In this document: in pieces, positions 288-15,251 of the stretch
Layout: each line of letters starts with the position of its first letter
Numbering within the stretch: the first letter of the stretch is position 1
Source: an uncultured Burkholderiales bacterium
Lineage (GTDB): Bacteria; Pseudomonadota; Gammaproteobacteria; Burkholderiales; Burkholderiaceae_C
Direction of reading: 5' to 3'
Length of the DNA: 52,962 nt
Assembly: GCA_903820745.1 (NCBI GenBank)
Contig: CAIJIT010000141.1
Coordinates: 1-52,962 of the forward strand
Notes under the pieces: model-generated
Seen by the model: only the letters and a program-made list of their open reading frames with translations
Database searches by the model: none
What the model was told of the DNA's origin: nothing
Program-made: the position numbers and the translations under genes

Positions 288-1829
288 GTGGCGACCATTG
301 AAAGCGGAGCGACGGTCAGTTCGTTCTTCCGGGAATCGTTATCACGTTTCCCGGGCAACGAGGCGGTGATAGCAGAGGAGGGTGTTCGCCTGAGCTACCA
401 GGACATTGGCAGGGCCGTTTCCTCGTTCGCGACAAAGCTGGCCTTGTTGGGCGTGAAGGACCATCGGGTGGCACTGCTCATGGGCAATGGCGCAGCGATT
501 GTGGTTGCGCTCCATGCGATCTGGGAAGCCGGTGCACAAGCTGTGCCATTGAACCCCGACTACACGGAACGCGAGCTTGACGAGATTCTTGAAGACGCAG
601 ACGTCTTGATCACCATCTGCGGTACAGCCCAGAATGACAGGATTGGTGATCTGCTCAAGCGCCGCAGCCGCGCCCAAGTTCTCGTGCTCGACTCTGTCGA
701 CCTGGCCGACCTGGTCACAGGAACTGGCGAGATCTTGGGCCAACTGCCCCATCCAGATTCGTTGGCAATCCTTCAGTACACCGGCGGAACCACCGGTCGG
801 TCCAAGGGGGTAGCGCTGACTCATCGAACGGTCGCGGTCAACGTCATGCAGCGCGATGAGGCGATTCCTATGGAGCCAGGCAAGGAGCGAATTCTCTGCG
901 TCACGCCGCTCTACCATGCCTACGCTACCGCAATGGCACTCTTCCCCGCGCTCTCGAGCGGAGGGGTGCTGGTCATCCTGACGCGGTTCAAGCCAGAGGC
1001 GGTTTTCGATGCGATCGAACGTGAACGAATCACCCTTTTCGCGGGTGCGCCTTCAATCTACAACGTCATGGTCACGCATCCGGAATTCGAACGCCGAGAC
1101 CTTTCCTCACTGACTGCCAGTTTTTCGGGTTCAGCGCCCTTGGCAGTAGACGTGCTTGAACGCTGGCAGCGTGTGTCGGGTGCGCCGATCCTGGAAGGTT
1201 ACGGGCTCACTGAGGCATCGCCGATCATCACATTCAATCCACGGCATGGCCCCCGCAAGGTGGGGTCGGTGGGTCCAGCCGTTAGCGCTACCCAAGTGGA
1301 GGTCGTGGAGATGGATGGGGGTACCCAACCGCTGGCGGCAGGCATCATTGGCGAGGTGCGGGCGCGCGGTCCGCAGTTGATGAAGGGCTACCGTAACAGG
1401 CCGAAGGAGACTGCCGAGGCGATTCGCGACGGCTGGCTCTATACCGGCGACCTCGGTGAACTCGATGAAGACGGGTATCTTTTCATCCGTGGCCGCAAGA
1501 AGGAAATGGTGATCGTCGGGGGCTTCAATGTCTACCCGTGTGAAATTGAGGAAGTACTGTTCACCCTGGATGGAGTGCTGGACTGCGCAGTTGTCGGCGT
1601 TCAGGATCCGCGCTGGGGTGAAGTAGTGCATGCATTTTTGGTACACGACGGCGCATCGCTCAATGCGGACCTTGTGATGGAGCACTGTTCCCGCAATCTT
1701 GTTCGTTACAAGCTTCCAGCGCGGGTCAATTTTCTCCAAGTGCTGCCGCGAACCGCTGTGGGCAAGCTGGACCGAACAGCGCTCGGGAAGATGGCCGGGG
1801 AACTGGTCCGCACGGGAGAGCCGGAATGA
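288..1829 (+). CDS. Acyl/aryl-CoA ligase (AMP-dependent synthetase family)
   Basis: This 513-residue cytosolic enzyme would activate a carboxylic acid to its CoA thioester through an acyl-adenylate. All core motifs of the ANL superfamily are visible: the P-loop YTGGTTGRSKG at 164-174, YGLTEAS at 305-311, YTGD at 385-388, the hinge RGRKKEMVIVGG at 401-412, and the catalytic lysine K493 in PRTAVGKLDR. The start is GTG at 288 after AAAGGGCGGG/AAAGAA; no better start is seen. It overlaps the next gene by ATGA, so the two are translationally coupled. Residues alone do not separate an aromatic acid from a side-chain fatty acid as substrate. The neighbouring acyl-CoA dehydrogenase favours a substrate with an acyl side chain. 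Confidence 0.9.
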   Translation: MATIESGATVSSFFRESLSRFPGNEAVIAEEGVRLSYQDIGRAVSSFATKLALLGVKDHRVALLMGNGAAIVVALHAIWEAGAQAVPLNPDYTERELDEILEDADVLITICGTAQNDRIGDLLKRRSRAQVLVLDSVDLADLVTGTGEILGQLPHPDSLAILQYTGGTTGRSKGVALTHRTVAVNVMQRDEAIPMEPGKERILCVTPLYHAYATAMALFPALSSGGVLVILTRFKPEAVFDAIERERITLFAGAPSIYNVMVTHPEFERRDLSSLTASFSGSAPLAVDVLERWQRVSGAPILEGYGLTEASPIITFNPRHGPRKVGSVGPAVSATQVEVVEMDGGTQPLAAGIIGEVRARGPQLMKGYRNRPKETAEAIRDGWLYTGDLGELDEDGYLFIRGRKKEMVIVGGFNVYPCEIEEVLFTLDGVLDCAVVGVQDPRWGEVVHAFLVHDGASLNADLVMEHCSRNLVRYKLPARVNFLQVLPRTAVGKLDRTALGKMAGELVRTGEPE

Positions 1830-3571
1830 GTAGCTACAAGGCACCTGTCGACGAGATCGATTTTGCGCTACGCACTTGGGCGAAGCTTCCGGCATTGCTC
1901 AATCCGTCTGCCATCCCCGATTCTTGCGATGCCGAAACCATCTCAGCCGTGCTGAATGGAGCCGGCCGGTTTGCTGCCGAAGTGCTGGCGCCGCTGGATG
2001 TGGTCGGGCACCGCGACGGCTGCGAGTTGCGTCCTGATGGCAGCGTGCGCACGCCGAATGGCTGGAAGGATGCCTACGCGCAGTTCGTCGCTGCGGAGTG
2101 GAATACGGTCAACTTTCCTGCCCATGTGGGTGGCCAGGGCCTTCCCTCTCCTGTGGCCATTGCCGTCGCCGAGATGTTCGAAGGGGCGAATCTGGCGTTC
2201 TCTTTGGCTCTCATGCCCTTTGCTGGCGTGGTGGCATTGCTTGACCGGTTTGGAACTGATGACCAGAAAGGTCGCTACCTTGCGCCCTTGGTCAGCGGGC
2301 GCTGGTCGGCGACGCTGGCGATGACGGAGAGCCATGCCGGCACTGATATTGGCGCTTTGCGCATGTCAGCATCCCCGCTGACCAACGGATTTGGGTTGCG
2401 TGGCCAGAAGGTATTCATCAGTTATGGCGCACACGATTTGAATGAAAACATCCTGCACTTCGTGCTCGCGCGTGATCCTGCTGGTCGCCCAGGGGCGAAA
2501 GGGCTTTCTCTCTACCTTGTGCCAAAGCGACTTGTGAATCCGGATGGATCCCTTGGTGAACTGAACGACGTGCGGTGCATCGCGGTCGAAAGGAAGATGG
2601 GAATACATGGAAGTCCGACGACCACCCTGGTGTTCGGGGCGAAAGACAGCGCCTGGGGCGAGCTTCTGGGCGATCCCTGCAAAGGACTGGACCATATGTT
2701 TGTCGTCCTCAACCGTGCCCGACTCAACATTGGCGTGTTCGGGCTGGCATCTGCGGAGCGTGCTTGGCAGATTGCAAATGCCTATGCCAATGAACGGGTA
2801 CAAGGCCTGGACGCGGCTGGGCGTCCCTGCGTGATTGCCCGGCATCCTGATGTACGTCGAATGCTTCTGGAGATGCAAACCGGCGTGGATGCCATGCGGG
2901 CTGTCTGCTACTACGCAGCCGGCTTGCTTGAGCGGTCGCAGCGCGACGATGCACCGGAAAAGCAGCATCAATGGCGCAGGCGACTCGACTTGCTGACGCC
3001 GGTCGTCAAGGGATGGGTCACCGAATTTGCTTACGAGACAGCCGGGACTGGCGTCCAGGTTGCTGGTGGAGCCGGCTATATGGATGAGTCACCGGCCTCG
3101 CGTTGTCTTCTGGAGGCGCGGGTTCACACCATCTATGAAGGAACGACGGGGGTCCAGGCAATGGACCTGACGCTGCGCAAGGTGGCCAAGGACGGCGGCA
3201 AGGCTGCGGCCGAACTCCTTGATGAGATGGGCTCGATCTGGCCGATCGCTGCCCGCGCTGCCCGACTGGACGGCAATCTGGCGGACATCAAGGACGCCTT
3301 GTCCATGCTCGCAGCGGCCACTGATTGGATTGTCGGACATGCCGCATCAAAGCCGGCTGCTGTTCAGGCGGTCGGCGTTCACTATCTGATGATGTGGGGC
3401 TATGCACTCGGTGCATGGCTGATGACGACTGCGGCCCAGGAGCAGCCGGCAAGGGCTGCCAGGGCGAATTTTTTCCTCAGACACCGGTTGCCCCGCGTGC
3501 AGATGCATTGGCGGGTCATTGAGCATGGTGCGGATGCGGCCGCAGATGGGCTTGTTCAGGACAGCTCGTAG
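1826..3571 (+). CDS. Acyl-CoA dehydrogenase, large DmdC-like type
   Basis: At 581 residues this FAD enzyme is longer than the roughly 380-400 residues of ordinary acyl-CoA dehydrogenases. It matches the subfamily with an extra C-terminal domain that includes DmdC, the 3-methylmercaptopropionyl-CoA dehydrogenase. The flavin/substrate segment AMTESHAGTDIGAL is at 165-178, the conserved VAGGAGYMDE near 412-421, and the probable catalytic base E438 sits in HTIYEGTTGVQAMDL. It follows the CoA ligase with an ATGA overlap, so it probably alpha,beta-desaturates the CoA ester made by that ligase. Its last 16 bp overlap the convergent Dabb gene. The substrate is unknown. Confidence 0.9.
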   Translation: MSSYKAPVDEIDFALRTWAKLPALLNPSAIPDSCDAETISAVLNGAGRFAAEVLAPLDVVGHRDGCELRPDGSVRTPNGWKDAYAQFVAAEWNTVNFPAHVGGQGLPSPVAIAVAEMFEGANLAFSLALMPFAGVVALLDRFGTDDQKGRYLAPLVSGRWSATLAMTESHAGTDIGALRMSASPLTNGFGLRGQKVFISYGAHDLNENILHFVLARDPAGRPGAKGLSLYLVPKRLVNPDGSLGELNDVRCIAVERKMGIHGSPTTTLVFGAKDSAWGELLGDPCKGLDHMFVVLNRARLNIGVFGLASAERAWQIANAYANERVQGLDAAGRPCVIARHPDVRRMLLEMQTGVDAMRAVCYYAAGLLERSQRDDAPEKQHQWRRRLDLLTPVVKGWVTEFAYETAGTGVQVAGGAGYMDESPASRCLLEARVHTIYEGTTGVQAMDLTLRKVAKDGGKAAAELLDEMGSIWPIAARAARLDGNLADIKDALSMLAAATDWIVGHAASKPAAVQAVGVHYLMMWGYALGAWLMTTAAQEQPARAARANFFLRHRLPRVQMHWRVIEHGADAAADGLVQDSS

Positions 3572-3861
3572 TCCGCCATCATCCGTTCTGTCCGCGCTCC
3601 AGCGATAAATGGGAATATGGCCTTGTGCTCGGGATGATCGCGGTAGAGCTCGAGGGCGGCCCGGTCCTCAAACTCGGCGTACAACGCCAAATCGCCGCTG
3701 GTATCTGAGTGCACGAAATCGATACCAACCTCGATTTTGAGCAAGCCCGGAATTTTGCCCTGTAGCGCTTCCAACTTTTCCTTGATCAGCACGGCGTTCC
3801 TGGCCGCCGTGTTGCCATGCGCTTCCGGCTTGAGGCGCCAGATGATGATGTGTTTGACCAA
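3556..3861 (-). CDS. Stress-responsive Dabb (dimeric alpha/beta barrel) domain protein
   Basis: This 101-residue ORF begins VKHIIIWRLKPEAHG, the first strand and histidine typical of the Dabb family (related to EthD and olivetolic acid cyclase). It continues to the second strand near SGDLALYAEFEDRAALELY. I chose the TTG at 3861 because AGAGGGAG lies about 6 bases upstream and the family fold starts there. A longer reading to 3915 would run through the palindrome at 3892-3905. The gene is convergent with the acyl-CoA dehydrogenase and divergent from the DapA-like gene, sharing the operator region. Family members act as small cyclases, mono-oxygenases or binding proteins, so the role here is open. 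Confidence 0.75.
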   Translation of the reverse strand: MVKHIIIWRLKPEAHGNTAARNAVLIKEKLEALQGKIPGLLKIEVGIDFVHSDTSGDLALYAEFEDRAALELYRDHPEHKAIFPFIAGARTERMMADYELS

Positions 3862-3891
3862 TTTTTTCTCCCTCTGATATTTTAAAAGCAT

Positions 3892-3905
3892 AAACATATA
3901 TGTAA
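3892..3905. promoter_or_regulatory. Putative GntR operator, site 2 (divergent promoter)
   Basis: AAACATATATGTAA contains the perfect 10-bp palindrome ACATATATGT (3894-3903). It lies between the Dabb gene (minus) and the DapA-like gene (plus), where it would cover the core promoter of one or both. A weak -10 candidate TAAGAT follows at 3903-3908. It matches sites at 174-187 and 9802-9815 in core and symmetry. Confidence 0.6.
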
Positions 3906-3932
3906 GATAGCGCAATCGTCAAGGAGATTTAA

Positions 3933-4868
3933 ATGTCCCGTCCCTCCATTGGCCGCCACCTTGCGGCTCTGGTCATTCCGTTCAAGGAAAACTTCGACAT
4001 CGACGAATCGGCACTGCGCCAGCTGTGCCAATTCATGCTGAAGGTCGATGGCATTGACGGACTCGTGGTCAACGCCAATGCCGGCGAGGTAGATTCGCTG
4101 ACCGAGGAAGAGCGTCTCCATGTGTTGCGCGTGGTCCGGGACGAGGCGCATGCCGCTGGCAAATTGGTGGTTGGCGGCGTTGTACCCGTCCCGGGTACGA
4201 ACGAGGCGGCGGTACGTACAGCCCGAACGATGCAGGCTGAAGGCGCCGACGCGCTACTTTTGCTCGGCCCGGCCTCTTTTGCTCGGGGCGTGGATGCCAC
4301 GCCGGAAGTTGCCGGCAAGTACGCCCAGGATGTGGCGTCCGCCGTGAAAATACCTGTCATCTATTTCATGCAGGGGCCCATGTCCGGCATCAATTACACG
4401 CCGGAAACTGTCAGGCAGATCTGTAGCGTTGACAATATCGTTGCCATCAAGGACACGATGTGGACGCCGCAAGGATTCGATGCGAACATCAAGTTGCTGC
4501 GCAACCTCGGCCGCGGAACCGTGGTCCTTAGTGGCAATGACAACTGCCTGTTCCATAACTTCGCCTCGGGAGCGCAAGGAACGCTGCTCATCCTCCATTT
4601 GGTCATGGCCAACGCGATCCTTGCAATGGAGGCAGCGATTTTGTCGAACGACCTCGACACAGCGCGCAAGATCCACGAGCGACATGAAGCATTGGTGGGC
4701 CTGCTGTTCGCACGGCCGATGCTGAAGATGCCTAGTCGCGTGAAGTTCGCCCTCAAGCAGATGGGCGTCATCTCCTCGGACCTCACACGTTCGCCCATTC
4801 CGCCGGTTTCGGCCGAAGAGGCCAAGGCCATCTCGATGCAATTGAGAGAGCTCGGCATCACGAACTAA
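3933..4868 (+). CDS. DapA-family lyase (dihydrodipicolinate synthase/aldolase superfamily)
   Basis: This 311-residue TIM-barrel class I aldolase-type protein has the likely Schiff-base lysine K173 in VAIKDTMW and a tyrosine Y144 in VIYF at the place of the DapA catalytic tyrosine. The usual GTTGE loop is replaced by NANAGE near 47-52. Such enzymes split or form C-C bonds with 2-oxo acids, and several meta-cleavage pathways use a DapA-like hydratase-aldolase. True lysine biosynthesis is unlikely in this catabolic setting. The start ATG has a strong AAGGAG ribosome site. It heads the run of genes to the ferredoxin at 8966, with short gaps or overlaps throughout. The exact substrate is unknown. 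Confidence 0.85.
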   Translation: MSRPSIGRHLAALVIPFKENFDIDESALRQLCQFMLKVDGIDGLVVNANAGEVDSLTEEERLHVLRVVRDEAHAAGKLVVGGVVPVPGTNEAAVRTARTMQAEGADALLLLGPASFARGVDATPEVAGKYAQDVASAVKIPVIYFMQGPMSGINYTPETVRQICSVDNIVAIKDTMWTPQGFDANIKLLRNLGRGTVVLSGNDNCLFHNFASGAQGTLLILHLVMANAILAMEAAILSNDLDTARKIHERHEALVGLLFARPMLKMPSRVKFALKQMGVISSDLTRSPIPPVSAEEAKAISMQLRELGITN

Positions 4869-4878
4869 GGAGTGTTGG

Positions 4879-5658
4879 GTGGACCTCGGTATCAGGGATC
4901 AAGTAGCCGTCGTGGCTGCCGGAACACGGGGAATCGGCCTGTCATGCGCCTTGGCGCTGGCCCGTGAAGGCGCGCGCGTTGCTGTGTTCGGCCGTGATCA
5001 GGCATCTTTGGCTAGTTGCGCTCGCGAGATTGCAGCGATTGCGGGTTCGCCATGTCTGGCGCTGCATGGCGACCTGCTGGAGGCCGATTCCGTCGCCAAC
5101 GTATTTGCTCAAGTCCGGGAACGACTTGGCCCCGTGCGGATCCTTGTTGCCAACTCGGTCGGACCACCACCCGGCAGCCTCGATGTGGCAACGGATGAGG
5201 CTTGGCTTCGCGCCTTCGAAGGCGCCTTCCTCTCGACGGTCCGGATGGTCCGTGCCGTATTGCCTCAGATGCTTGAAGCCGGTAGCGGCTCGGTGGTAGC
5301 AGTGCAGTCTAGCTCCGTGAAGCAGCCGATACCCGGAATGTTCCTGTCAAACGGTGTGCGGCCCGGTGTCGCCGGTCTGATGAAATCCCTGACTCAGGAA
5401 TATGCCAGAAAGGGACTGCGCTTCAACGTGGTGTGCCCAGGTCGCATCCACACAGAGCGGTTCATGAACGTAGAAAAGTCGCATGGTGGCGACACGGAGG
5501 CACGCATTGCCCGATCGGCTGCCGAGGTGCCGATGGGCCGCCTGGGGCATCCCGACGAAGTTGCGGACGCCGTTCTTTTCCTGGCATCTGCGCGAGCTTC
5601 GTACATCACGGGATCAGTGCTGTCCGTTGACGGTGGCAATGTACGCGGCCTGTATTGA
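4879..5658 (+). CDS. SDR-family protein with non-canonical active site
   Basis: This 259-residue Rossmann-fold protein has the dinucleotide motif AAGTRGIGLS (13-22) and an ANSVGPPPGS segment in place of NNAG. The catalytic serine region SSS at 144-146 is present. The YxxxK pair is absent: by alignment with the SDR at 14306-15079, Tyr is Ser157 and Lys is Arg161 in LSNGVR. I recall a bacterial SDR subgroup with this SNxxR pattern annotated as 3-oxoacyl-ACP reductases, so this is probably a family trait rather than decay. The start is GTG after GGAGTG, 10 bp behind the DapA-like gene. It could be a reductase or dehydrogenase with altered chemistry, or a non-redox enzyme. Confidence 0.85.
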   Translation: MDLGIRDQVAVVAAGTRGIGLSCALALAREGARVAVFGRDQASLASCAREIAAIAGSPCLALHGDLLEADSVANVFAQVRERLGPVRILVANSVGPPPGSLDVATDEAWLRAFEGAFLSTVRMVRAVLPQMLEAGSGSVVAVQSSSVKQPIPGMFLSNGVRPGVAGLMKSLTQEYARKGLRFNVVCPGRIHTERFMNVEKSHGGDTEARIARSAAEVPMGRLGHPDEVADAVLFLASARASYITGSVLSVDGGNVRGLY

Positions 5659-5667
5659 GGATCAAGG

Positions 5668-5955
5668 ATGACGCTTTACGATCTCGAGAGCTATCTGTTT
5701 AAATTGAAGAATGATCCGCTGTCGCAGCGAGCGCTGGTGGCTGATCCGAAATCGCACCTGGCCGTCCAGGCCATCGATGAGGCTGCAAAGAACGCCATTT
5801 TGAACAAGGACATTGGAGCCTTGTGGCAGATGGGCGTCCATCCTCTTCTGCTGGTGCCCCTCTCGCGCTTCCTCGGAATGACACCATTTGAGTATCGGCA
5901 GCGGCTCGCGCCGCACAAGGGCAGTCGGTCTATCCGTAGCAGTTGGGAAGGATGA
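5668..5955 (+). CDS. Extradiol dioxygenase small (LigA-like, alpha) subunit
   Basis: This 95-residue helical protein resembles the LigA domain of protocatechuate 4,5-dioxygenase. It has an N-terminal helical YDLESYLFKLKNDP segment and the signature GVHPLLLVPLSRFLGMTPFE near 56-75. LigA-type subunits have no metal; they cap the active site of the LigB partner and complete substrate binding. It ends 3 bp before the probable LigB-like start, so the two should be made as a complex. The small free-standing alpha subunit recalls LigAB and the carbazole enzyme CarBaBb. A ribosome site (AGGATCAAGG) precedes the ATG. Confidence 0.85.
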   Translation: MTLYDLESYLFKLKNDPLSQRALVADPKSHLAVQAIDEAAKNAILNKDIGALWQMGVHPLLLVPLSRFLGMTPFEYRQRLAPHKGSRSIRSSWEG

Positions 5956-5957
5956 AG

Positions 5958-6779
5958 ATGAAAGGCGCGATTGTCTTTGCCGCCGGAGTCAGTCACGCGC
6001 CCCACATCACAGGGTTCCCCGACCACGCGCCTGTGGAAAGCAAGTTGCGTTTCTACGCGGCGATGAACGAGGTCGGTGCGCGCCTGCGGGCGGCCCGGCC
6101 GGATGTGGTGGTGGTGGTCTCATCGGATCATTTTCACAACCTCTTTACAGACAGAATGCCGGCCTTTTGCGTAGGCAGGGCTGCCGAGCATCAGGGGCCA
6201 GCCGAACGCTGGATCCGGATTGAGCCTTTTTCAGTGAAAGGTGCCCCGTCGTTTGCGCGTGCTGTGATGCAGCATGCTTTCAGGTTGGGGATGGATCCGG
6301 CTTTTTCGGACCATGTGGTGCTCGAACATGGGTTGGCGGTGCCGCTTTCCTTCCTGACCCCGGAGTTCGACTATCCCGTCCTGCCAATCCTGCAAAACTG
6401 CATGGTGCCGCCCCTGCCACCCCTGCACCGCTGCTATGCCTTCGGCCAGGTGCTTCGCGCAGCAGCAGAAGATCAGGGGCTGCGCGTCGCCGTCGTCGGC
6501 ACGGGAGGCCTGTCGCATGCGCCCGGCTCGCCCGATGCAGGCAGGATTGACATTGAGTTCGATCGAGAATTTCTCGAGATGTTGCGGACGCGGCCGATGG
6601 ACGTCCTCGACCTTGCCGACGAACGAATTGACGCAGCGGGCTTCGGGACCTGGGAGATCCGGCAATGGATTACGGCCTTGGGAGCAGCCGGCGGCGGCAA
6701 GGCGGAAGTACTAGCCTACGAACCTGTTGAAGCTTGGGAAACCGGTTGTGGTGCGGTCGTGTTTTCGCTGGAGCATTGA
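5958..6779 (+). CDS. Class III extradiol ring-cleavage dioxygenase, catalytic LigB-like subunit
   Basis: The 273-residue protein carries the LigB-fold iron and catalytic residues: H13 in GVSHAPH, the histidine pair in SSDHFHN, the histidine of GTGGLSHAPG, and a late glutamate in AYEPVEAWE. It would use Fe(II) and O2 to open a catechol-type ring next to the hydroxyls. I prefer the ATG at 5958 because GGGAAGG lies 6 bases upstream. ATG 5952 (ATGA overlap with the alpha subunit) and TTG 5943 are alternatives. With the adjacent alpha subunit and the Rieske oxygenase downstream it forms a dihydroxylation and meta-cleavage module. The native diol is not predictable from motifs. Confidence 0.9.
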   Translation: MKGAIVFAAGVSHAPHITGFPDHAPVESKLRFYAAMNEVGARLRAARPDVVVVVSSDHFHNLFTDRMPAFCVGRAAEHQGPAERWIRIEPFSVKGAPSFARAVMQHAFRLGMDPAFSDHVVLEHGLAVPLSFLTPEFDYPVLPILQNCMVPPLPPLHRCYAFGQVLRAAAEDQGLRVAVVGTGGLSHAPGSPDAGRIDIEFDREFLEMLRTRPMDVLDLADERIDAAGFGTWEIRQWITALGAAGGGKAEVLAYEPVEAWETGCGAVVFSLEH

Positions 6780-6788
6780 GGAATAAAT

Positions 6789-8051
6789 ATGGAAGCCAGT
6801 CGAATCGACCTGCGCGCGCTGGTCAGGCCCGAAAAGGGCTTGATCGGCAAGACGATCTTCTCTGATGAGGATGTCTATCGCAGAGAGTTGCAACAGGTGT
6901 TCGCGCGCTGCTGGCTGTACCTCGGCCATGAATCTCAATTGCCTCAGGAGCACGATTTTTTCACTACCTACATGGGGGCCGATACCGTCATTGTCACTCG
7001 GTCGGACGGGAAAATCCGGGCCTTCCTTAACGCGTGCACGCACCGCGGCATGAAGGTCTGCCGGACAGACCGCGGCAACGCGGCTGACTTTACCTGCCCA
7101 TACCATGGCTGGTGCTTCTCCTCATCGGGAGATCTGGTGGGCGTCCCTGGCATGCGTGAGGCCTACAACCACCAGCTTGACACCAAGCAATGGGGCCTAA
7201 GGGAGGTCGCGCAACTGGATACCTTCCATGGTCTGATTTTTGCCACATGGTCTGCCGATGCGCCTTCACTGGCGACTTACCTGGGCGACATGAGTTGCTA
7301 CTTGGACCGAATGCTCAACCGAATGGAAGGCGGCGTCGAAATGATCGGCGCCGTGCAGAAATGGGAGATGCCGGTGAACTGGAAGCTGATCGCCGAGAAC
7401 TTTCTGGGCGATTCGTATCATGTGGGGACGACGCATGGGTCGGTGGTCGATATTGGTTTTCGCAAGCGGCCAAAAAAAGACGGCTATCAAATTTCCATCC
7501 GCGGTGGCCATGGATTCGGCTCTGAGCTGGGCGGCTTTGGCGCCAGTGCCGAACCCACGCCCTACGAGGCATACCTGAACACTGTTCGGTCAAAGTTGAC
7601 GGCCGCGCGTAATCCGGTCGACCAGTTCATCCCATTGGGCCACGGCACGATCTTCCCGAATATGTCGTTCCTGGACGGCGTGAAGTTCAGGATGATCCGC
7701 ATGTCGCATCCCAGGGGGCCCGGAATGACCGAGAGTCACACCATGTGTTTTGTCGACAAGGCGCTGCCTGAACACTTGCGCGATGAAGTCCGCAGAAGCT
7801 TCATTCTGGCGTTCGGCCCGAGCGGGATGTTCGAGGTGGAAGATGGTGAGGTTTGGGGAGAGGTCTGCGACGGTCTGCGCGGGCATGTTGCCTCGTCCAT
7901 GGATTTCAATTACCAGATGGGCCTTGGCCAGGACGTGCCTGTCAGTGAAAAGTTCGGCGGAGACCTTCCTGGCCGGGCGGGCTGGTACTGGAGCGAGGTC
8001 AACCAGCGCGAGTATTACCGCCGCTGGCTGGAACTCATGGAGGCGAAATGA
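6789..8051 (+). CDS. Rieske ring-hydroxylating oxygenase, alpha subunit
   Basis: The 420-residue catalytic subunit has the Rieske [2Fe-2S] ligands C83-x-H85 and C103-x2-H106. The mononuclear iron site is in AENFLGDSYHVGTTH, with ligands H211 and H216 and the bridging D208. The third carboxylate is probably D352 in VEDGEVW. Enzymes of this type add O2 to an aromatic ring to give a cis-dihydrodiol. The beta subunit overlaps it by ATGA and a Rieske ferredoxin follows, so it is a multicomponent dioxygenase. No reductase gene occurs in the window. Its length is close to benzoate- and salicylate-type alpha subunits, but substrate range cannot be read from the sequence. Confidence 0.93.
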   Translation: MEASRIDLRALVRPEKGLIGKTIFSDEDVYRRELQQVFARCWLYLGHESQLPQEHDFFTTYMGADTVIVTRSDGKIRAFLNACTHRGMKVCRTDRGNAADFTCPYHGWCFSSSGDLVGVPGMREAYNHQLDTKQWGLREVAQLDTFHGLIFATWSADAPSLATYLGDMSCYLDRMLNRMEGGVEMIGAVQKWEMPVNWKLIAENFLGDSYHVGTTHGSVVDIGFRKRPKKDGYQISIRGGHGFGSELGGFGASAEPTPYEAYLNTVRSKLTAARNPVDQFIPLGHGTIFPNMSFLDGVKFRMIRMSHPRGPGMTESHTMCFVDKALPEHLRDEVRRSFILAFGPSGMFEVEDGEVWGEVCDGLRGHVASSMDFNYQMGLGQDVPVSEKFGGDLPGRAGWYWSEVNQREYYRRWLELMEAK

Positions 8052-8554: not shown

Positions 8555-8562
8555 AAATTTCA

Positions 8563-8658
8563 ATGCCCACAATCGAACCGGCTGGGGCGCAAGTCCTCGT
8601 CGACCGGATCATCAATCTCTTGACCGCCCGGGCGCACCGGGCTGAGGCGACCGAATGA
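8563..8658 (+). CDS. Small 31-aa ORF of unknown function between oxygenase beta and ferredoxin
   Basis: An ATG at 8563 opens a 31-codon frame (MPTIEPAGAQVLVDRIINLL, then a short charged tail) that fills the beta-ferredoxin gap exactly and stops at TGA 8656-8658, overlapping the ferredoxin ATG as ATGA. This is the same coupling used elsewhere in the operon, so the frame may be translated as a small protein or as a coupling leader. The middle could form one amphipathic helix. No strong ribosome site precedes it, and I recognise no family. It may equally be a chance ORF or the relic of a longer gene. Confidence 0.35.
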   Translation: MPTIEPAGAQVLVDRIINLLTARAHRAEATE

Positions 8659-8966
8659 GTTGGGTACGGGTCGCCGACGAGACGGAGATCTTTGAGGGTT
8701 ATGGGTTCGCTGCGACCGCAGGAATCCGCCACATCGCAATATTCAAGGCGGAAGACAGCTTTTATGCGTGCGACGGGATCTGCACTCATGCGCACGCGTT
8801 TCTTGCCGAAGGTTATGTCGAGGGCGATGAAGTGGAATGCCCGATGCATTTAGGCAGATTCAATTTCCGGACTGGAAAGGCTGTCTGTGCGCCTGCTCGG
8901 GTGGATCTCAACACTTTCCCCGTTGAAGTTCGCGACGGCGGAGTTTTTGTCGATATACCAGTCTGA
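8655..8966 (+). CDS. Rieske-type [2Fe-2S] ferredoxin
   Basis: The 103-residue protein carries the Rieske ligands C43-x-H45 (CTHAHAFL) and C62-x2-H65 (CPMHLGRF) and ends with the usual beta-rich VRDGGVFVDIPV. It is the electron carrier to the oxygenase alpha subunit, as BphF/CarAc-type ferredoxins are. Because no reductase is encoded nearby, the electrons must come from a reductase elsewhere in the genome. The start ATG has GAGGCGA upstream and overlaps the stop of the 31-codon ORF. It is the last gene of the plus-strand run, converging with the GntR gene. Confidence 0.92.
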   Translation: MSWVRVADETEIFEGYGFAATAGIRHIAIFKAEDSFYACDGICTHAHAFLAEGYVEGDEVECPMHLGRFNFRTGKAVCAPARVDLNTFPVEVRDGGVFVDIPV

Positions 8967-8979
8967 CTTCTGCGGCTAT

Positions 8980-9738
8980 CTAGCGAATCCGGGGAGACAC
9001 TTTCGCAATCTTGCCCTTGGTCCTGTCCTGTGTCAGGTCCATGTCGAAGCGAAACTGGAATCGATCACCGCGAAACCAGATTTCCGGAGTGTGAACGAGC
9101 CGGCCGTCGCTGGCAAATAGCGCACCCTTGAAAAGCAGTACTGGTGTAAGCGGGTCGATTTCGAGTAAGCGGGAAATTTGCAGTGGGGGCGTAACAGATT
9201 CCAGGTTGATTTCCACGTTTCTCAGGTCTAACCCGAACTGCTCGCGGAGGATTCGGAACATGGGGTAGCGCCGCAACTTGGCGAGCGTCATTTGCTTGCC
9301 GAATTCGGGCAAGACGTGGTGCACCGAATAGCTCCATGGCCGGCCATCAATGCGGGCGATGCGGCAGATTTCGTAGACCTTGTCAGATTCAAATCGCAAG
9401 CGCAGGTGCGCCGGCGTGTCCACAAGCTTCTTCTCGAGAATCTCCGTACCCGCGTCGAACTCGTCAGAAAACATCAATTCAAGCGCCGATTGGGTATTCA
9501 TCTCCAGCACGGAGATGTCCTTTCGCACAAACGTCCCGCGCCCCCGGTGCCGCTCGATCAGGCCTTCATCCTCAAGTTCGCGCAGGGCGCGCTGCACCGT
9601 GATCACACTTACGGCATAGTCCTCGACGAGTTGAAGCTCAGTCGGCAGTTTGGCGCCTGGCAGGTAGGTCCCCCGGGTGATTTCCGCGCGCAAGAGTTGG
9701 GCGATTTGGTAAGTAATCGGAATTTTTCTTGAGTACAT
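8980..9738 (-). CDS. GntR-family transcriptional regulator (HutC/UTRA subfamily)
   Basis: This 252-residue regulator has an N-terminal winged helix-turn-helix of GntR type (YQIAQLLRAEITRGTYLPG, then LPTELQLVEDYAVSVITVQRALREL and IERHRGRGTFV, about residues 10-72). A UTRA ligand-binding domain follows (about 95-240). HutC-type members are usually repressors released by a pathway metabolite. It is divergent from the ABC importer with a 137-bp gap that holds palindrome site 3. Two similar palindromes front the other units of the cluster, so it is the probable local repressor of uptake and catabolism and of itself. The effector is unknown. Confidence 0.9.
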   Translation of the reverse strand: MYSRKIPITYQIAQLLRAEITRGTYLPGAKLPTELQLVEDYAVSVITVQRALRELEDEGLIERHRGRGTFVRKDISVLEMNTQSALELMFSDEFDAGTEILEKKLVDTPAHLRLRFESDKVYEICRIARIDGRPWSYSVHHVLPEFGKQMTLAKLRRYPMFRILREQFGLDLRNVEINLESVTPPLQISRLLEIDPLTPVLLFKGALFASDGRLVHTPEIWFRGDRFQFRFDMDLTQDRTKGKIAKVSPRIR

Positions 9739-9801
9739 GAACTGAGTTCAGGATTCGGAGCTTGACAGAGAAACTGCGATGTCGGACGATACAATACCTA
9801 T

Positions 9802-9815
9802 ATCCATATATGTAT
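9802..9815. promoter_or_regulatory. Putative GntR operator, site 3 (regulator/importer divergent promoter)
   Basis: ATCCATATATGTAT lies 64 bp upstream of the regulator start (minus) and 61 bp upstream of the binding-protein start (plus). Its 8-bp core CATATATG is identical to site 2 and differs by one base from site 1. A single operator between the regulator and the importer would give autoregulation plus control of uptake. Confidence 0.6.
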
Positions 9816-9875
9816 GAGTTCTCGTTAAAAATTCGGTAACTTTTTTCATTTCATCGCAAGCATTGAGGAGACATC

Positions 9876-11033
9876 ATGATCAATCGCAGAACTTTCGCCA
9901 AACATGCCGGACTGGCCGCGGTTGCCGGCATTGTCCCCGGTATTTCCAGCGCCCAGGCTACCCGCGAACCCCGCCGCATCGGATTCCTCATGCCGCTGAC
10001 CGGTGGTTCAGGCAAATTGGGCCATATGATGCTTGAGGGTGCGACAGTAGGCGTCGATGAGATCAATGCCGGTTCAGGCGCTGGTGGCCGCCTTATCGAA
10101 CTCGTCCAGGAGGATAGTCAGGCCTTAGCCCAACAGGGGATTGCAGGGTTCCGCAAGTTGGTCGACGTCAACAAGACGGATGTCATTTTTACCGGTTGGA
10201 CAGCGGTCGTCTCGGCGATTGCACCGCTTGCCGGTGAATCGAAAGTGATGCTGGTGTCTGCCAGCACGGCATCGCCCGCCGTGCGTGGCATTTCGCCATA
10301 CTTTCAATCGACGTGGATGTTCGACGACGAGACGGTCAAGCTGATTCTGCCGTACGCCAAAGACAAGCTGAAGGTGAAGTCACTGGCTGTCCTGACCGTC
10401 GTGAGTGATCTTGGTACCGCGCTTGCTCAGGCTGTCAAGGCAGACTGGACCCGCATCGGCGAGCAGATCGTCGCGGAAGACGTCCACCAACCCGCCGAGG
10501 CCAACTTCCGCCCGATCTTGATCAAGCTACTGGGTGCCAAGCCGGATGCAATTTACCTCACGAGTTCCAATGGCAAGCAGTTGGCGCAAATCGTCAGACA
10601 AGCCAGAGAAATCGGTTACAAGGGCATCTTCCTGAGTTATGGCGCCTTCGAGGACCCTGAGGTGCTCACACTTGGAACGCAGGCCGACGGCTGCTATTAC
10701 TCCTCACCATCCTACGATGCGGCAAATCCCGGACCGACAGGCCGCAAGTTTGTGGATGCCTTCCAGAAGAAATATGGCCGACTGCCCAATGTTCACCAGG
10801 CCAATCACTACGATCTCGTGCTGCTTTATAGTGCCGTCGCCGACGGCCTGGCCAAGCAGAACAAGGCTTTGACCGGTGCGAGCTTTCGAGACTACCTCAC
10901 CGCCACGATGCCGCAGTACCAGGGTGCAGCGGGTGCGTACAAGTTCAACTTCAAAGACGGCAGCGTGCTTCGGTCGTCAATCGTAAAAGTCGTGCGCGAC
11001 GGCAAGTTTACGAAGATCGATGATCTGAGCTGA
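9876..11033 (+). CDS. ABC transporter substrate-binding protein, branched-chain amino-acid type (Peripla_BP_6)
   Basis: The 385-residue periplasmic protein starts with a twin-arginine-like signal (NRRTFAKHAGLAAVAGIV) and probable cleavage near SSAQA. The mature part begins with RIGFLMPLTGGSGKLG and has the type I periplasmic-binding fold of LivJ-like proteins. ATTGAGGAG precedes the ATG. The four other importer genes follow within 15 bp or less. LivJ-like proteins often bind aromatic acids in catabolic clusters, so this one probably binds the cluster substrate; that is inference from context. The Tat-like signal would mean export of a folded protein but could also function as a Sec signal. 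Confidence 0.9.
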   Translation: MINRRTFAKHAGLAAVAGIVPGISSAQATREPRRIGFLMPLTGGSGKLGHMMLEGATVGVDEINAGSGAGGRLIELVQEDSQALAQQGIAGFRKLVDVNKTDVIFTGWTAVVSAIAPLAGESKVMLVSASTASPAVRGISPYFQSTWMFDDETVKLILPYAKDKLKVKSLAVLTVVSDLGTALAQAVKADWTRIGEQIVAEDVHQPAEANFRPILIKLLGAKPDAIYLTSSNGKQLAQIVRQAREIGYKGIFLSYGAFEDPEVLTLGTQADGCYYSSPSYDAANPGPTGRKFVDAFQKKYGRLPNVHQANHYDLVLLYSAVADGLAKQNKALTGASFRDYLTATMPQYQGAAGAYKFNFKDGSVLRSSIVKVVRDGKFTKIDDLS

Positions 11034-11047
11034 AGTTTGGATGGCGC

Positions 11048-11932
11048 ATGGAGCAGTTCACTCTTTTTCTCAACCTGCTCCTTGATGGACTCGCGACAGG
11101 ATGTCTCTATGCGCTGGCTGGCATTGGTTTTTCTTTGCTGTGGTGGTTGGCGGATATTGTCCACCTTGCCCATGGCGGAGTGATTATTGCCGCAGGCTAT
11201 GCCGGCCACCTTGTTCTTAGCAAGCTTGGCGCTCCACTCTGGCTGGCACTGGCTGCGTCGATGCTGATCGCCGTGATGCTGGGCGTGCTGATCGACAGGC
11301 TGGCTTACCGGCGACTTGCGAAGCGCGGGTCGGGCGAAATGGGTATGTTGACAGCTTCTTTGGGGCTGTTGATTTGCCTTGAGTACGGCGTAACCCTCAT
11401 CTTCGGGCCGGAAGGTGTGCAAGCAGATCCTGGACTGGCTCGAGTACCGCTGTTTCCGAGCTCCGGTGTTTTGCTTGATGTCTACACGCTGGCGGTCGTA
11501 GCTGGCACCTTAGCCGTATTTGCCGGGCTGGCATTCCTGATGCGGTACAGCCAGTTCGGAATAAACATGCGCGCCGTTGCAGAGAACCCGTCGCTAGCCC
11601 ACTCGTTGGGCATCAAGACGCTCCAAGTGACTACCGCTGCCAGTGCCTTGGCGGCGGCTGCCGGCGCGCCAGCGGCGCTTGTCTATCTTTACAGCCGCGG
11701 GCTAACCCCGCACGATGCCATCCACATTGTGCTCATGGGGGCAATCGTCGCTATTTTTGGTGGGCGCGGGTCGATCGCCGGCGCGCTGATCGCTGCGCTG
11801 TTGATCGGCATCGCCGAAAGTGTCATGGTCTGGTTCTTCGACGCGGGCTGGCGCGAGGTCATGACTTTCGGACTCCTCTACCTCCTGCTACTCGTGCGGC
11901 CGGAAGGCTTGCTCGGGGCCAGTTCCCGCTGA
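11048..11932 (+). CDS. Branched-chain-type ABC permease, LivH-like
   Basis: This 294-residue inner-membrane protein has about eight hydrophobic segments. The opening FLNLLLDGLATGCLYALAGI and the ending LLVRPEGLLG are hallmarks of the LivH family, as is the cytoplasmic coupling region around MRAVAENPSLAHSLGI. It would pair with the LivM-like product immediately downstream to form the translocation pore for the substrate delivered by the 9876-11033 binding protein. It starts 14 bp after that gene. It is co-directional and almost certainly in one transcript with the remaining importer genes. Confidence 0.92.
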   Translation: MEQFTLFLNLLLDGLATGCLYALAGIGFSLLWWLADIVHLAHGGVIIAAGYAGHLVLSKLGAPLWLALAASMLIAVMLGVLIDRLAYRRLAKRGSGEMGMLTASLGLLICLEYGVTLIFGPEGVQADPGLARVPLFPSSGVLLDVYTLAVVAGTLAVFAGLAFLMRYSQFGINMRAVAENPSLAHSLGIKTLQVTTAASALAAAAGAPAALVYLYSRGLTPHDAIHIVLMGAIVAIFGGRGSIAGALIAALLIGIAESVMVWFFDAGWREVMTFGLLYLLLLVRPEGLLGASSR

Positions 11933-11941
11933 AACCAACGC

Positions 11942-12817
11942 ATGGGTTACCTCGTCCACATTCTCAGCACAGCAGGTATTTTCGCCATTTTGGCGCTTGC
12001 CCTCGACTTGCTTGTCGGCTTCGGCGGGATGATGTCGCTGGCTTCTGGGGTCTTCTTCGGCATCGGCGCTTACTCCAGTGCGTTATTGCTCAAAGCAGGG
12101 TGGCCGATGCCAGTGGCCATGCTGTTCGGCATGGGGTTCGCCACTGTCCTTAGTTTGGTCATCGCTTTGCCAGCCATCCGAATTCGTGGTGTCTATCTCC
12201 TGATAGTGACAATCGCTGTTCAGATGATCTTTACGACCATCGTTCAGAACTGGCGCTCCGTCACTGGGGGAGACGCAGGCGTTTCCAACATTCCGCCGAT
12301 TTCGATTTTCGACTGGAAACTGCGTGGTTTGCCCTTTCTCGCGCTGGTCATTGCCAGTTGCGTCTTGTTGTTGCTGGTGATGCGAAAGATCGCCGACTCG
12401 CCTTTCGGCCATGTCCTGCGGGCGATTCGCGATGACGAAGTCGGGGCGGCATCTCTGGGCAAGCATTCAGCGGCGGCAAAACTCGCAGCTTTTGGCCTTT
12501 CTGCATGCATTGCCGCTTACGCGGGATCACTCTACGCACACTACACGTCATACATCGATCCGCATTCCTTTAATATCAGCCTTTCCATCATGGTTCTCCT
12601 GATGGTCATGCTCGGCGGGGCGGGAACCTTGGTCGGACCCATGGTCGGCGCGATCGTTCTCACAATCCTCCCGGAAGCGCTCAAATTTCTTCCCCTTCCG
12701 CCCGGCGCAGCCCCAGCGCTGAGGCAACTGAGCTATGGCGGGCTCCTTGTCATCGTCGTTTTCCTGCGGCCTCAAGGGCTGCTCGGTAAAGCCTCGGCGC
12801 ATCGCCGTACCCAATGA
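11942..12817 (+). CDS. Branched-chain-type ABC permease, LivM-like
   Basis: The 291-residue membrane protein shows the LivM pattern: ILALALDLLVGFGGMMSLASGVFFGIGAY near the N-terminus, LRAIRDDEVGAASLGKH as the ATPase-contact loop near 156-175, and VVFLRPQGLLG at the end. It is the second half of the permease heterodimer. It begins 9 bp after the LivH-like gene and ends at the start of the ATPase gene, whose first in-frame ATG overlaps its stop. Nothing is disrupted. Confidence 0.92.
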   Translation: MGYLVHILSTAGIFAILALALDLLVGFGGMMSLASGVFFGIGAYSSALLLKAGWPMPVAMLFGMGFATVLSLVIALPAIRIRGVYLLIVTIAVQMIFTTIVQNWRSVTGGDAGVSNIPPISIFDWKLRGLPFLALVIASCVLLLLVMRKIADSPFGHVLRAIRDDEVGAASLGKHSAAAKLAAFGLSACIAAYAGSLYAHYTSYIDPHSFNISLSIMVLLMVMLGGAGTLVGPMVGAIVLTILPEALKFLPLPPGAAPALRQLSYGGLLVIVVFLRPQGLLGKASAHRRTQ

Positions 12818-12825
12818 GGCTGCGC

Positions 12826-13584
12826 ATGAAAAACAAGCAACCACTGCTGTCGGTACGGAACATCCGCAAGAGTTTTCGAGGCATCAAGGTGCTTGAAGAT
12901 GTGTCGTTCGATGTCGATGCAGGTTCAATTACGGCCCTCGTCGGCTCGAATGGAGCCGGCAAGAGCACATTGGTCAACGTCATCACGGGTGCGATCCAGT
13001 CGGATGGGGGCGAGGTCCGCTTGGCGGGGCGGGACCTTGGCCAACTGCCTGCTTATCAACGGGTACAGGCAGGTCTGCTGCGCACATTCCAGCATCCCCG
13101 CGTATTCGGGTCATTTACCGTGGCAGAAAGTGTCGCCCTAGCCAGAACACCACCGGAACTTGAACGCTTTGGGTCATCGTTGCTTTCGGCACTGACAGGG
13201 AAAGTGGCCGCGCCGGCGTTTGAAGCACGCTATCCGGTCGAGCAACGGCTTGTCGGGTTGGCGGGAATTCCGGCTTCGCTGCTTTCTTATGGTGAGAAGA
13301 AGCTGCTCATGCTTTCGCAACTGCTCGCACTGGATGGTTCGGTCATGTGCTTCGACGAACTCTGTGCCGGGATGGAACTGGCAGTAGTGGCAGATGTGCA
13401 GCATTGCCTGCTTTCGCTGGCGGAGCAGGGTAAAGCGATCGTTTTTGTGGAACATAACCTGGCTCTCGTCCGCTCCCTCGCGACGCGAGTCATCTTCCTG
13501 AACCAAGGCCGGGTCTTCCGCGACGGCCCGGTTGATGAAGTACTGACCGACCCTGAAGTGGTCAGCCTTTACCTCGGAGAGTAG
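12826..13584 (+). CDS. ABC transporter ATPase, LivG-like
   Basis: The 252-residue cytosolic ATPase has Walker A GSNGAGKST, a signature LSYGEKKLLM, Walker B VMCFDE, and the switch histidine in VEHN. Both the signature (normally LSGG-like) and the segment after Walker B (ELCAGM rather than EP-AGL) are slightly unusual. The core residues are present. GAGG at 12816-12819 favours ATG 12826, and ATG 12814 (overlapping the LivM stop) is the alternative. It works as a heterodimer with the LivF-like product next door to power import. Confidence 0.9.
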   Translation: MKNKQPLLSVRNIRKSFRGIKVLEDVSFDVDAGSITALVGSNGAGKSTLVNVITGAIQSDGGEVRLAGRDLGQLPAYQRVQAGLLRTFQHPRVFGSFTVAESVALARTPPELERFGSSLLSALTGKVAAPAFEARYPVEQRLVGLAGIPASLLSYGEKKLLMLSQLLALDGSVMCFDELCAGMELAVVADVQHCLLSLAEQGKAIVFVEHNLALVRSLATRVIFLNQGRVFRDGPVDEVLTDPEVVSLYLGE

Positions 13585-13586
13585 GG

Positions 13587-14306
13587 TTGTCACAACAAGT
13601 CATCACAGCGCAAGGCGTTTACTCAGGATATGGCGACGCGGAGGTCCTTCGTGGTGTGTCGCTGCGACTGGACCAAGGCGAAATCGTCGGTCTGATCGGG
13701 CCGAACGGTGTCGGCAAGACGACGCTCCTGAAATGCATGGCGGGCCTCATGCCGATCGGGTCGGGTCAGCTACGAGTCTTCGAGCGCGACGTTGTGGCGA
13801 GTTCAACGCTTGAACTGCGCTTGGCAGGTCTTGGGTATGTGCCGCAGGAACGCAATGTGTTCCCCAACCTGAGCGTGCGGGAGAACTTGGAGACCGCCTA
13901 CCGGGTAGCCGGCAAAAGGGCCGCTGCCATCGATATTGACGAAAGGATGGCGTTCGTGGAAGCACTCTTTCCGCGACTCGCGGAGCGGCGTAGCCAGCAC
14001 GCCGGACTGATGAGTGGTGGAGAACAACGAATGGTGGCCCTGGGAATGGGCCTGATGCTCAAGCCCCAGGCCCTGCTGCTGGACGAGCCGACAACAGGCT
14101 TGGCGCCCATTGTGGTGTATGAACTGATGAGAGCCATTCGCAAATTGCGGGAGTCCGAAGGCATTTCAATCTTGATCGTGGAACAGAACATTGCGTCGAT
14201 GCTGAAGGTCGTAGACCGGCTGTACATCATGAAGGAAAACGTCTGCAGGGAATTCGAGGGTGAACCGGCAGACCTGGGACGACAGAACATTTGGGAGTAT
14301 CTGTAA
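13587..14306 (+). CDS. ABC transporter ATPase, LivF-like
   Basis: This 239-residue ATPase has Walker A GPNGVGKTT, signature MSGGEQRM, Walker B ALLLDEPTTGLAP and the switch VEQN. All are canonical for the LivF branch, as is the VPQERNVFPNLSV Q-loop. The start is TTG at 13587, directly behind the LivG stop and preceded by GGAGAG. It ends with TAATG, coupling it to the SDR gene. It completes the five-component importer: binding protein, two permeases and two ATPases. Confidence 0.92.
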   Translation: MSQQVITAQGVYSGYGDAEVLRGVSLRLDQGEIVGLIGPNGVGKTTLLKCMAGLMPIGSGQLRVFERDVVASSTLELRLAGLGYVPQERNVFPNLSVRENLETAYRVAGKRAAAIDIDERMAFVEALFPRLAERRSQHAGLMSGGEQRMVALGMGLMLKPQALLLDEPTTGLAPIVVYELMRAIRKLRESEGISILIVEQNIASMLKVVDRLYIMKENVCREFEGEPADLGRQNIWEYL

Positions 14307-15079
14307 TGCACGCATCACAAGGGGGACGCTTTGAAGGGAAAACGGCGCTGGTGACCGGTGGAGCTGCCGGCATCGGTCTGGCAGTCGCGAATGGATTTTT
14401 TGAACAAGGTGCGCGTGTTGTCATCGTAGACATTCGTGGTGCTGAGGAGGCAGCCCGGAAACTTGATGCCAGCGGCTCTCGGGTGCGGGGGGTGACAGCG
14501 GATGTAACTGTGGATTCGCAGGTCGAAGAAGCCGTTAGCAAGGCGACGCAGATTTTCGGGTCCGTGGACATCCTCGTGAACAACGCCGGTATCGCGACGT
14601 CGATTACGCCTCGGCCCTTCGAGGAAATTGGTACCGAGGAATGGCTGCGTGTCTACGACGTCAACGTCATGGGTATCTTCCGTTTTTGTCGCGCGGTGCT
14701 CAAACCAATGAAGGCGGTTGGTGGTGGCAGGATCGTGAACATCGGCTCTGCTGCGGCGTTCAAGGGAGTACCGCTGCTGCTTCACTATGTATCGAGCAAG
14801 GGTGCGGTGCTGGCCATGACGCGCAGTCTCGCCAAAGAACTGGCTCAGTACAACATTCTCGTGAATTGCGTGGCACCCGGCTTCACCATCAGCCCTGCGG
14901 TGCTCGAGAATGAAGGCCAGATGTCGCAGTCGCGTACCATTTCTTTGCAAGGGCGGGCAATCGCGCGAGACCAGTACCCTGAGGATCTTGTCGGTGCCGT
15001 CCTGTTCCTTGCTTCGAACGAAGCTTCTTTCATGACCGGCCAGACGCTCGTCGTCGACGGCGGCACCTACCTGCACTGA
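14306..15079 (+). CDS. Short-chain dehydrogenase/reductase, canonical
   Basis: The 257-residue NAD(P)-dependent oxidoreductase has the full classical SDR set: TGGAAGIG at 17-24, NNAG at 92-95, catalytic S148, and Y161-x3-K165. D42 after the second strand (VIVDI) favours NAD(H). A natural role would be oxidation of the cis-dihydrodiol made by the Rieske oxygenase, or of a hydroxyacyl-CoA; both are inference. The TAATG overlap with the LivF-like gene and GGGAG about 8 bases upstream choose ATG 14306. Downstream lies only a thiolase remnant, so the operon may once have been longer. Confidence 0.9.
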   Translation: MHASQGGRFEGKTALVTGGAAGIGLAVANGFFEQGARVVIVDIRGAEEAARKLDASGSRVRGVTADVTVDSQVEEAVSKATQIFGSVDILVNNAGIATSITPRPFEEIGTEEWLRVYDVNVMGIFRFCRAVLKPMKAVGGGRIVNIGSAAAFKGVPLLLHYVSSKGAVLAMTRSLAKELAQYNILVNCVAPGFTISPAVLENEGQMSQSRTISLQGRAIARDQYPEDLVGAVLFLASNEASFMTGQTLVVDGGTYLH

Positions 15080-15101
15080 TGAACTTCGATAGTGCGGTTT
15101 T

Positions 15102-15251
15102 TTGCAGCGTGCCGTGATACGCGGCCTCGGCTTGGACCTCAGCAAGGTCCATCTGAATGGCGGCGCGATCGCCCTCGGCCATCCGGTCGGTCGCTCCGTT
15201 GCCTTCCTGGCCACCAAGGCGATTTACGAATTGCACCGCACCATCCGGTAA
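15102..15251 (+). pseudogene. Thiolase C-terminal remnant
   Basis: One frame from about 15102 to TAA 15249-15251 encodes the last part of an acetyl-CoA acyltransferase-like thiolase. It contains [17 protein letters not shown], which holds the conserved GHP motif of the active site, and ends YELHRTIR. The first roughly 340 codons are missing and no start is present, so it is the end of a deleted gene. It lies 22 bp after the SDR stop. A thiolase would fit the CoA ligase and acyl-CoA dehydrogenase at the other end of the cluster. A deletion or recombination event therefore appears to have removed part of the pathway here. Confidence 0.75.

Follow-up and report, generated by a model that had tools for sequence, protein, structure and literature searches.

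Among the described systems that come closest to the locus considered here, the ibuprofen route places ligation to coenzyme A (CoA) before the dioxygenase step (available part of PMC9195938), and, more generally, the clustering of oxygenases into families tends to correlate with their native substrates (available part of the AromaDeg report, PMC4250580). The locus is a cluster of 17 intact genes at positions 288-15079 of contig CAIJIT010000141.1 from an uncultured Burkholderiales bacterium (Burkholderiaceae_C; assembly GCA_903820745.1, 5.1 Mb, 99% complete, 4% contamination); positions 1 to 52,962 of this contig, the whole stretch that was analyzed, are referred to below as the window. Its probable role is to take up an aromatic acid and degrade it, using known enzyme types in a combination that matched no named pathway. 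In agreement with the original prediction for this DNA, none of the hca/mhp, p52 fln/dfd-type, hpa, nah and ipf systems fits, and the literature searched brought up no match.

As the best explanation, to which we give slightly more credence than to its negation, we propose a GntR-controlled regulon of three units through which an aromatic carboxylic acid would be taken up and degraded aerobically, its ring being attacked in a form that is not a CoA ester. The sequence itself shows the gene set, its conservation and a palindrome ahead of each unit, and the enzymatic steps are predicted from it. A Liv-type importer would take up the aromatic acid, and the alpha and beta subunits and ferredoxin of a Rieske oxygenase, served by a reductase from elsewhere, would form a cis-dihydrodiol on a ring without a CoA ester. 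A short-chain dehydrogenase/reductase (SDR2) would rearomatize the dihydrodiol, and LigAB would open the resulting substituted catechol by extradiol cleavage. A DapA-like Schiff-base lyase, aided by a second, atypical SDR with an SxxxR motif (SDR1) and perhaps by a Dabb protein, would split the product, giving pyruvate plus either an acid or an aldehyde, and the remaining chain, with three carbons or more, would pass into beta-oxidation through a CoA ligase and an acyl-CoA dehydrogenase (ACAD).

Gene set, conservation and a shared palindrome

Pfam and NCBIfam scans of the window proteins recovered every gene that the original prediction had named, with two amendments to its list: the Dabb gene is read from the minus strand, and the list had lacked a GntR/UTRA regulator. 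The extent it had given, 288-15251, is slightly too long, the last gene stopping at 15079 and being followed by the relic of a thiolase gene. The features are as follows (DHDPS, dihydrodipicolinate synthase).

288-1829, plus strand: AMP-binding acyl/aryl-CoA ligase, GTG start (PF00501/PF13193)
1826-3571, plus strand: ACAD of the large, 581-aa type (Pfam)
3556-3858, minus strand: Dabb A/B-barrel protein (PF07876, 75.9 bits)
3933-4868, plus strand: lyase of the DapA/DHDPS superfamily (PF00701, 131.6 bits)
4879-5658, plus strand: SDR1, atypical, with SxxxR replacing YxxxK (Pfam, motif alignment)
5668-5955, plus strand: LigA-type small subunit, 95 aa (PF07746 below cut-off, position next to LigB)
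5943-6779, plus strand: LigB-type class III extradiol dioxygenase, catalytic subunit (PF02900, 149.7 bits)
6789-8051, plus strand: Rieske oxygenase alpha subunit (Pfam, NCBIfam, PDB sequence matches)
8048-8554, plus strand: Rieske oxygenase beta subunit (PF00866, 109.4 bits)
8655-8966, plus strand: Rieske-type ferredoxin, HcaC-like (Pfam/NCBIfam; 47% identity to HcaC over 77 aa)
8980-9738, minus strand: GntR/UTRA regulator, HutC-like (Pfam/NCBIfam)
9876-11033, plus strand: periplasmic substrate-binding protein, Peripla_BP_6 (Pfam)
11048-14306, plus strand: LivH, LivM, LivG and LivF importer genes (Pfam)
14291-15079, plus strand: SDR2 with YxxxK, candidate dihydrodiol dehydrogenase (Pfam, motif alignment)
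15110-15241, plus strand: relic of a BktB-like thiolase gene (90% identical to a thiolase gene), left out of the pathway

The whole cluster is also present, at 93.8% DNA identity over 14,965 bp, in a metagenome-assembled genome (MAG) labeled 'Paucibacter toxinivorans' (genome G690, locus L063), a species now placed under Roseateles by NCBI. This is a syntenic cluster of the kind for which the original prediction had proposed a search: L063 holds all 17 genes in the same order, and none of them contains an internal stop in either the window or L063. With codons facing gaps excluded, the ratio of nonsynonymous to synonymous divergence (dN/dS) between the two loci ranges across the 17 genes from 0.01 (regulator) to 0.28 (ligase), with 0.14 for the ACAD and 0.13 for LigA, which points to purifying selection; dS itself ranges from 0.07 (beta subunit) to 0.34 (LivH). 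Given the intact frames, the preserved gene order and these ratios, the cluster appears to be more than a chance assembly. Two other stretches common to the window genome and that of L063 show 92.5% and 93.8% DNA identity, resembling the identity of the cluster, so that nothing points to a recent transfer between the two genomes.

The cluster is rare within the sampled, non-exhaustive genome sets. The lyase was detected at E <= 1e-30 in 2 of the 18 genomes of the genus (its own and a second that we take to be the genome of L063) and at E <= 1e-40 in 1 of 399 sampled genomes of the order (its own only). At E <= 1e-100, the alpha subunit was found in 2 of 398 sampled genomes of the family, its own and G484, and in its own only among 398 sampled genomes of the phylum; LigB, at E <= 1e-40, was present in 32 of 399 sampled family genomes, its own included. 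A scan of named genomes, which detects close relatives only, gave two loci from 18 pattern matches. Plasmid searches with LigB, the lyase, the alpha subunit and the ligase returned no record at 60% identity or more, nor did a search with SDR1 capped at 5000 records; none of the annotated regions inspected carries this gene set, and the two unannotated regions inspected match LigB or LigA only. Judged from titles and the openings of abstracts, literature searches on the gene combination brought up no publication recognizable as describing the same cluster.

The GntR/UTRA regulator shares 99.6% amino-acid identity with its L063 counterpart. The site before the ligase gene served as the query for a palindrome search of the window with up to 3 mismatches, which returned 7 overlapping matches, including the query, that fall at three places, compared to 0.14 expected from shuffles. 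These palindromic operator candidates are located as follows.

173-187: candidate 1, upstream of the ligase-ACAD genes
3891-3905: candidate 2, between the Dabb and DapA-like lyase genes
9801-9815: candidate 3, between the regulator and binding-protein genes

The pattern built from the three sites has exact matches only at these sites in the window genome (G000), where a match at each of them follows by construction, and only at the corresponding sites in G690. With one mismatch allowed, one extra site appears in each genome, and a reversed control pattern matches twice per genome. The extra site (contig C178 of G000 and contig C3 of G690) adjoins a gene that we take to be of the toxin-antitoxin type and was not counted as a member of the regulon. 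Within intergenic sequence of 82% identity, the window and L063 do not differ at site 1 (15 bp) or the neighboring positions; sites 2 and 3 are less informative because their intergenic stretches are 97-98% identical. Given that the same palindrome precedes all three transcription units, the ligase and ACAD genes are tied to those for ring cleavage, and the three units, ligase and ACAD included, look like one regulon. The palindromes are candidate operators to which the GntR protein would bind, and the ligand that releases it from them would name the substrate.

Ring cleavage and a candidate lower pathway

LigB keeps the aligned residues that we take to be the metal ligands and the catalytic His. 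LigA scores below the cut-off of PF07746 (23.6 vs 25.3 bits); it is adjacent to LigB, conserved in L063 and close in size to the 90-aa CarBa and the 90-aa small subunit of p52, and the gene order is like that of CarBa-CarBb. The identity of LigB is 35% to the p52 enzyme, 33% to both CarBb and the LigB of G484, 30% to a plasmid-borne LigB whose gene is annotated next to ligA and 27% to MhpB. Its relatives in homoprotocatechuate-type operons are 40-44% identical, such an operon being found near LigB in three of the five relatives compared (G493, G424 and G133, not G272 and G571). A LigB from a Lacisediminimonas MAG, truncated by the contig start, is 49% identical, and genes for a Liv importer and an SDR2-like protein follow on its contig; in a tree of 14 selected LigB rows, not every homolog, it joins the window LigB at 89/97 support, the deeper forks being weak.

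No cluster protein was assigned by the Pfam scans to a family of meta-cleavage hydrolases, hydratases, aldehyde dehydrogenases, decarboxylases or tautomerases. Since the usual hydrolase, hydratase and aldehyde dehydrogenase families were not found, the DapA-like lyase and the tyrosine-less SDR1 become candidates for the lower pathway, and we infer that they act on the LigAB product. The lyase keeps the aligned Lys and Tyr that we assume to serve Schiff-base catalysis, and carries NANAGE at the position of GTTGE in E. coli DapA. It scores below the cut-offs of both the dapA equivalog TIGR00674 (120.6 vs 206.15 bits) and the HpaI-type aldolase TIGR02313 (76.2 vs 396.7 bits), and its AlphaFold model, made from two sequences, has a mean confidence score (pLDDT) of 55.4. 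SDR1 lacks the classical YxxxK motif, SDR2 being the only SDR of the cluster that carries it. The SxxxR variant is also present in three SDRs of known structure (2z1n, 5vps and 5va8), in an Alloyangia plasmid SDR beside a DHDPS-family gene and in an SDR of the G484 cluster, so that this SDR type recurs; we know of no function for it.

On the Alloyangia plasmid (L065, 1655-3330), the SxxxR SDR gene is located immediately 3' of the DHDPS-family gene, and on a Microvirga plasmid (L068, 5072-6779), an unannotated SDR1-like stretch, matched in two pieces, follows a DHDPS-family gene. These pairings come from a biased sample, given that 5 of the 12 listed SDR1 neighborhoods were inspected and two were picked for a visible DHDPS gene.

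We tentatively suggest, while considering it doubtful as a whole, a meta-cleavage route that dispenses with a C-C hydrolase, a hydratase and a class II aldolase: the class I lyase, with its unusual NANAGE motif, and the SxxxR SDR would split the LigAB product, and the ligase and ACAD would take the remaining chain into beta-oxidation. If true, this would provide an alternative ending for a LigAB meta-cleavage route and a function for an SDR type that has lost the catalytic Tyr and Lys.

Ring attack and the place of the CoA steps

The alpha subunit keeps the aligned Rieske motif ligands and the mononuclear iron site, residue roles that we assume, and together with the beta subunit and ferredoxin makes up a multicomponent Rieske set. 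Its best PDB matches, at 306-327 bits, are the dioxygenases of biphenyl, phenylpropionate, cumene and benzene, members of the biphenyl/toluene family that we take to act on unesterified substrates, compared with 233 bits for naphthalene dioxygenase of the Pseudomonas type and 118 bits for terephthalate dioxygenase. The subunit is 51% identical to the alpha subunit of G484, 43% to that of Rhodococcus WAY2, 41% to those of p52 and pBD2, 38% to HcaE, 36% to NdoB and 26% to the presumed IpfA, the NdoB, HcaE, biphenyl and p52 alphas spanning 36-41%. Given the resemblance to biphenyl and phenylpropionate dioxygenases, the low identity to IpfA, and the AromaDeg correlation and ibuprofen order as far as the cited accounts were available, we lean toward an oxygenase that attacks a ring outside a CoA ester. 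The ligase and ACAD could act either before ring opening, on the parent acid, or after it, on the chain that remains, and the type of oxygenase inclines us toward the latter. The best PDB matches of the ligase, with equal scores, are 8weu ('Fatty-acyl-CoA synthase') and 8wev ('Feruloyl-CoA Synthetase'), and those of the ACAD are 6ijc, which we take to be DmdC, 8pns and 8png.

Several observations weigh against this reading. A stretch of the alpha subunit at the entrance loop contains 6 Lys or Arg among 22 residues, likewise in L063, whereas the three relatives counted have 1, 0 and 0 (a count that leaves aside HcaE, BphA1, NdoB and IpfA), and such a basic loop could suit CoA or another anionic substrate. 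The tree of 11 selected alpha rows, for which 80 residues were trimmed from the front of the L047 alpha frame, has weak deep branching, a midpoint root and IpfA on a long branch; the PDB ranking is the firmer basis. The Pfam scans detected no ferredoxin reductase among the cluster proteins, and the window genome offers two partial matches to HcaD (28% over residues 1-279 and 35% over 103-277). The cluster of G484 has a ligase as well, 26% identical, so that CoA activation may be an early step. The lyase is only distantly related to the proteins with which it was compared, at 24-27% identity to three aldolase-family proteins (27% to NanA, 24% to DapA) and at most 31% among the listed plasmid matches, and it gave no blastp match at E 1e-2 to NahE of NAH7.

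The original prediction had proposed side-chain activation and desaturation, ring diol formation, LigAB cleavage and C-C splitting by the lyase. This route is supported in part: the cluster indeed encodes enzymes for forming a ring diol and for LigAB cleavage, as well as a DapA-like protein in which the Schiff-base Lys and Tyr are aligned, and the palindrome common to all units ties in the ligase and ACAD. In its CoA-first form, the two enzymes would convert the acid into an unsaturated aryl-acyl-CoA, a CoA ester on which both the Rieske system and LigAB would act, much as a CoA ester undergoes dihydroxylation in the ibuprofen route; we hold this order to be rather unlikely. It draws on the shared palindrome, the feruloyl-CoA synthetase among the two equal best matches of the ligase and the basic entrance loop, and has a precedent in ibuprofen, to which CoA is attached ahead of the dioxygenase step (available part of PMC9195938), and in the ligase IpfF, which converts 3-phenylpropanoate into its CoA ester (available part of PMC9956071). 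The alpha subunit, however, has its nearest matches among dioxygenases of presumably unesterified substrates and only 26% identity to IpfA, and the cluster proteins include no blastp match to IpfD and no OB-fold family. The pathway would also show whether an oxygenase close to biphenyl and phenylpropionate dioxygenases can serve a CoA-dependent route.

Still less probable is that the ligase and ACAD initiate the beta-oxidation of a longer omega-arylalkanoate, with thioester hydrolysis and then ring attack on the short free acid. Acyl-CoA dehydrogenases act on saturated acyl chains, and ligase and ACAD form a separate transcription unit with its own palindrome, but the cluster proteins include no enoyl-CoA hydratase, thiolase or thioesterase family. 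The BktB-like thiolase gene that is intact upstream of the cluster in L063 resides in the window genome on another contig (C222), where no palindrome match is found, and was rejected as a pathway gene. We give as little weight to a pathway for a biaryl or polycyclic acid, similar to the degradation of fluorene, dibenzofuran or carbazole (compounds that we take to be substrates of the p52 and Car systems), in which the DapA-like protein would be a hydratase-aldolase. LigB is indeed more similar to the p52 enzyme and CarBb than to MhpB, the small subunits are of similar size, and the alpha subunits of the window and p52 are 41% identical; yet the cluster contains no alpha/beta-hydrolase family, the lyase lacks a match to NahE, and LigB is nearer to the LigB proteins of homoprotocatechuate-type operons. 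The regulon for an aromatic acid attacked without CoA is the reading that we favor.

Beyond the cluster, the thiolase relic, together with the intact copies elsewhere, hints at past rearrangement. The stretch 15107-20613 of the window is absent at the corresponding place in L063; it includes genes for a histidine kinase with GAF domains, a receiver protein and a receiver-guanylate cyclase on the minus strand at 15353-19529. At the contig end (48796-52820), a LysR regulator, an alpha/beta hydrolase and two Liv permease genes possibly form a second catabolic operon.

Comparison with known and parallel systems

The hca/mhp system of E. coli K-12 resembles the cluster in the Rieske components (HcaE 38%, HcaF 31% and HcaC 47% over 77 aa) and in class III extradiol cleavage. 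The NCBIfam cut-offs of the hca families are nevertheless missed (HcaE, 365 vs 830 bits; HcaF, 89 vs 230; HcaC, 95 vs 150), as is that of PRK10069 in the HcaF test (132 vs 145 bits). SDR2 is only 29% identical to HcaB, HcaD is missing from the cluster, and the two-subunit LigAB contrasts with MhpB (27%). The MhpC, MhpD, MhpE and MhpF families are lacking as well, whereas ligase, ACAD and DapA-like lyase are present. The hpa-type operons of G493, G133 and G424 share a LigB of 40-44% identity with an adjacent LigA, but contain CHMI isomerase and HpaE, HpaG and HpaH (NCBIfam, in G493), none of which occurs in the window cluster. The iad system of Variovorax was rejected as a match since, in the available part of its description (PMC10374108), the oxygenase uses the reductase IadC, whereas the cluster has a ferredoxin and no reductase.

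Plasmid pDF02 of Rhodococcus p52 carries a cluster, presumably with fln/dfd gene names, that is similar in the Rieske alpha (41%) and beta (29%) subunits, an SDR and a LigB-type extradiol enzyme (35%) with a 90-aa small protein that has no Pfam match. It differs in encoding an alpha/beta hydrolase and an MFS transporter, as opposed to the Liv importer, ligase, ACAD and DapA-like lyase of the window. The ipf genes of pIBU218, labels that we assigned from the annotation, include a CoA ligase (31%) and Rieske alpha and beta subunits, and at another place the plasmid encodes an ACAD of the same type as that of the window (36%); in this case, the alpha subunits are only 26% identical, IpfD has no match in the window cluster, and the extradiol enzyme is of the VOC type.

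A parallel cluster is located in G484 (L090, gene starts chosen by hand), a genome of the same family as that of the window. The two clusters have in common LivG, LivF, LigA and a CoA ligase, Rieske alpha and beta subunits at 51% and 37% identity, LigB at 33% and an SxxxR SDR at 32%. That of G484 differs in the divergent ligase and in the presence of an HcaB-like SDR and an aspartate-dehydrogenase-like gene, and no tblastn match to the lyase, ACAD or ferredoxin was found in the 17 kb searched, beginning at the contig start. The window genome itself contains a decayed relative of the G484 cluster (L047, contig C229, 5832-12839), with open alpha and beta frames, LigB matched only at residues 1-27 and both SDRs matched in part. 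Compared with all these systems, the cluster unites known enzyme families in a combination that none of them matches, with a predicted lower pathway.

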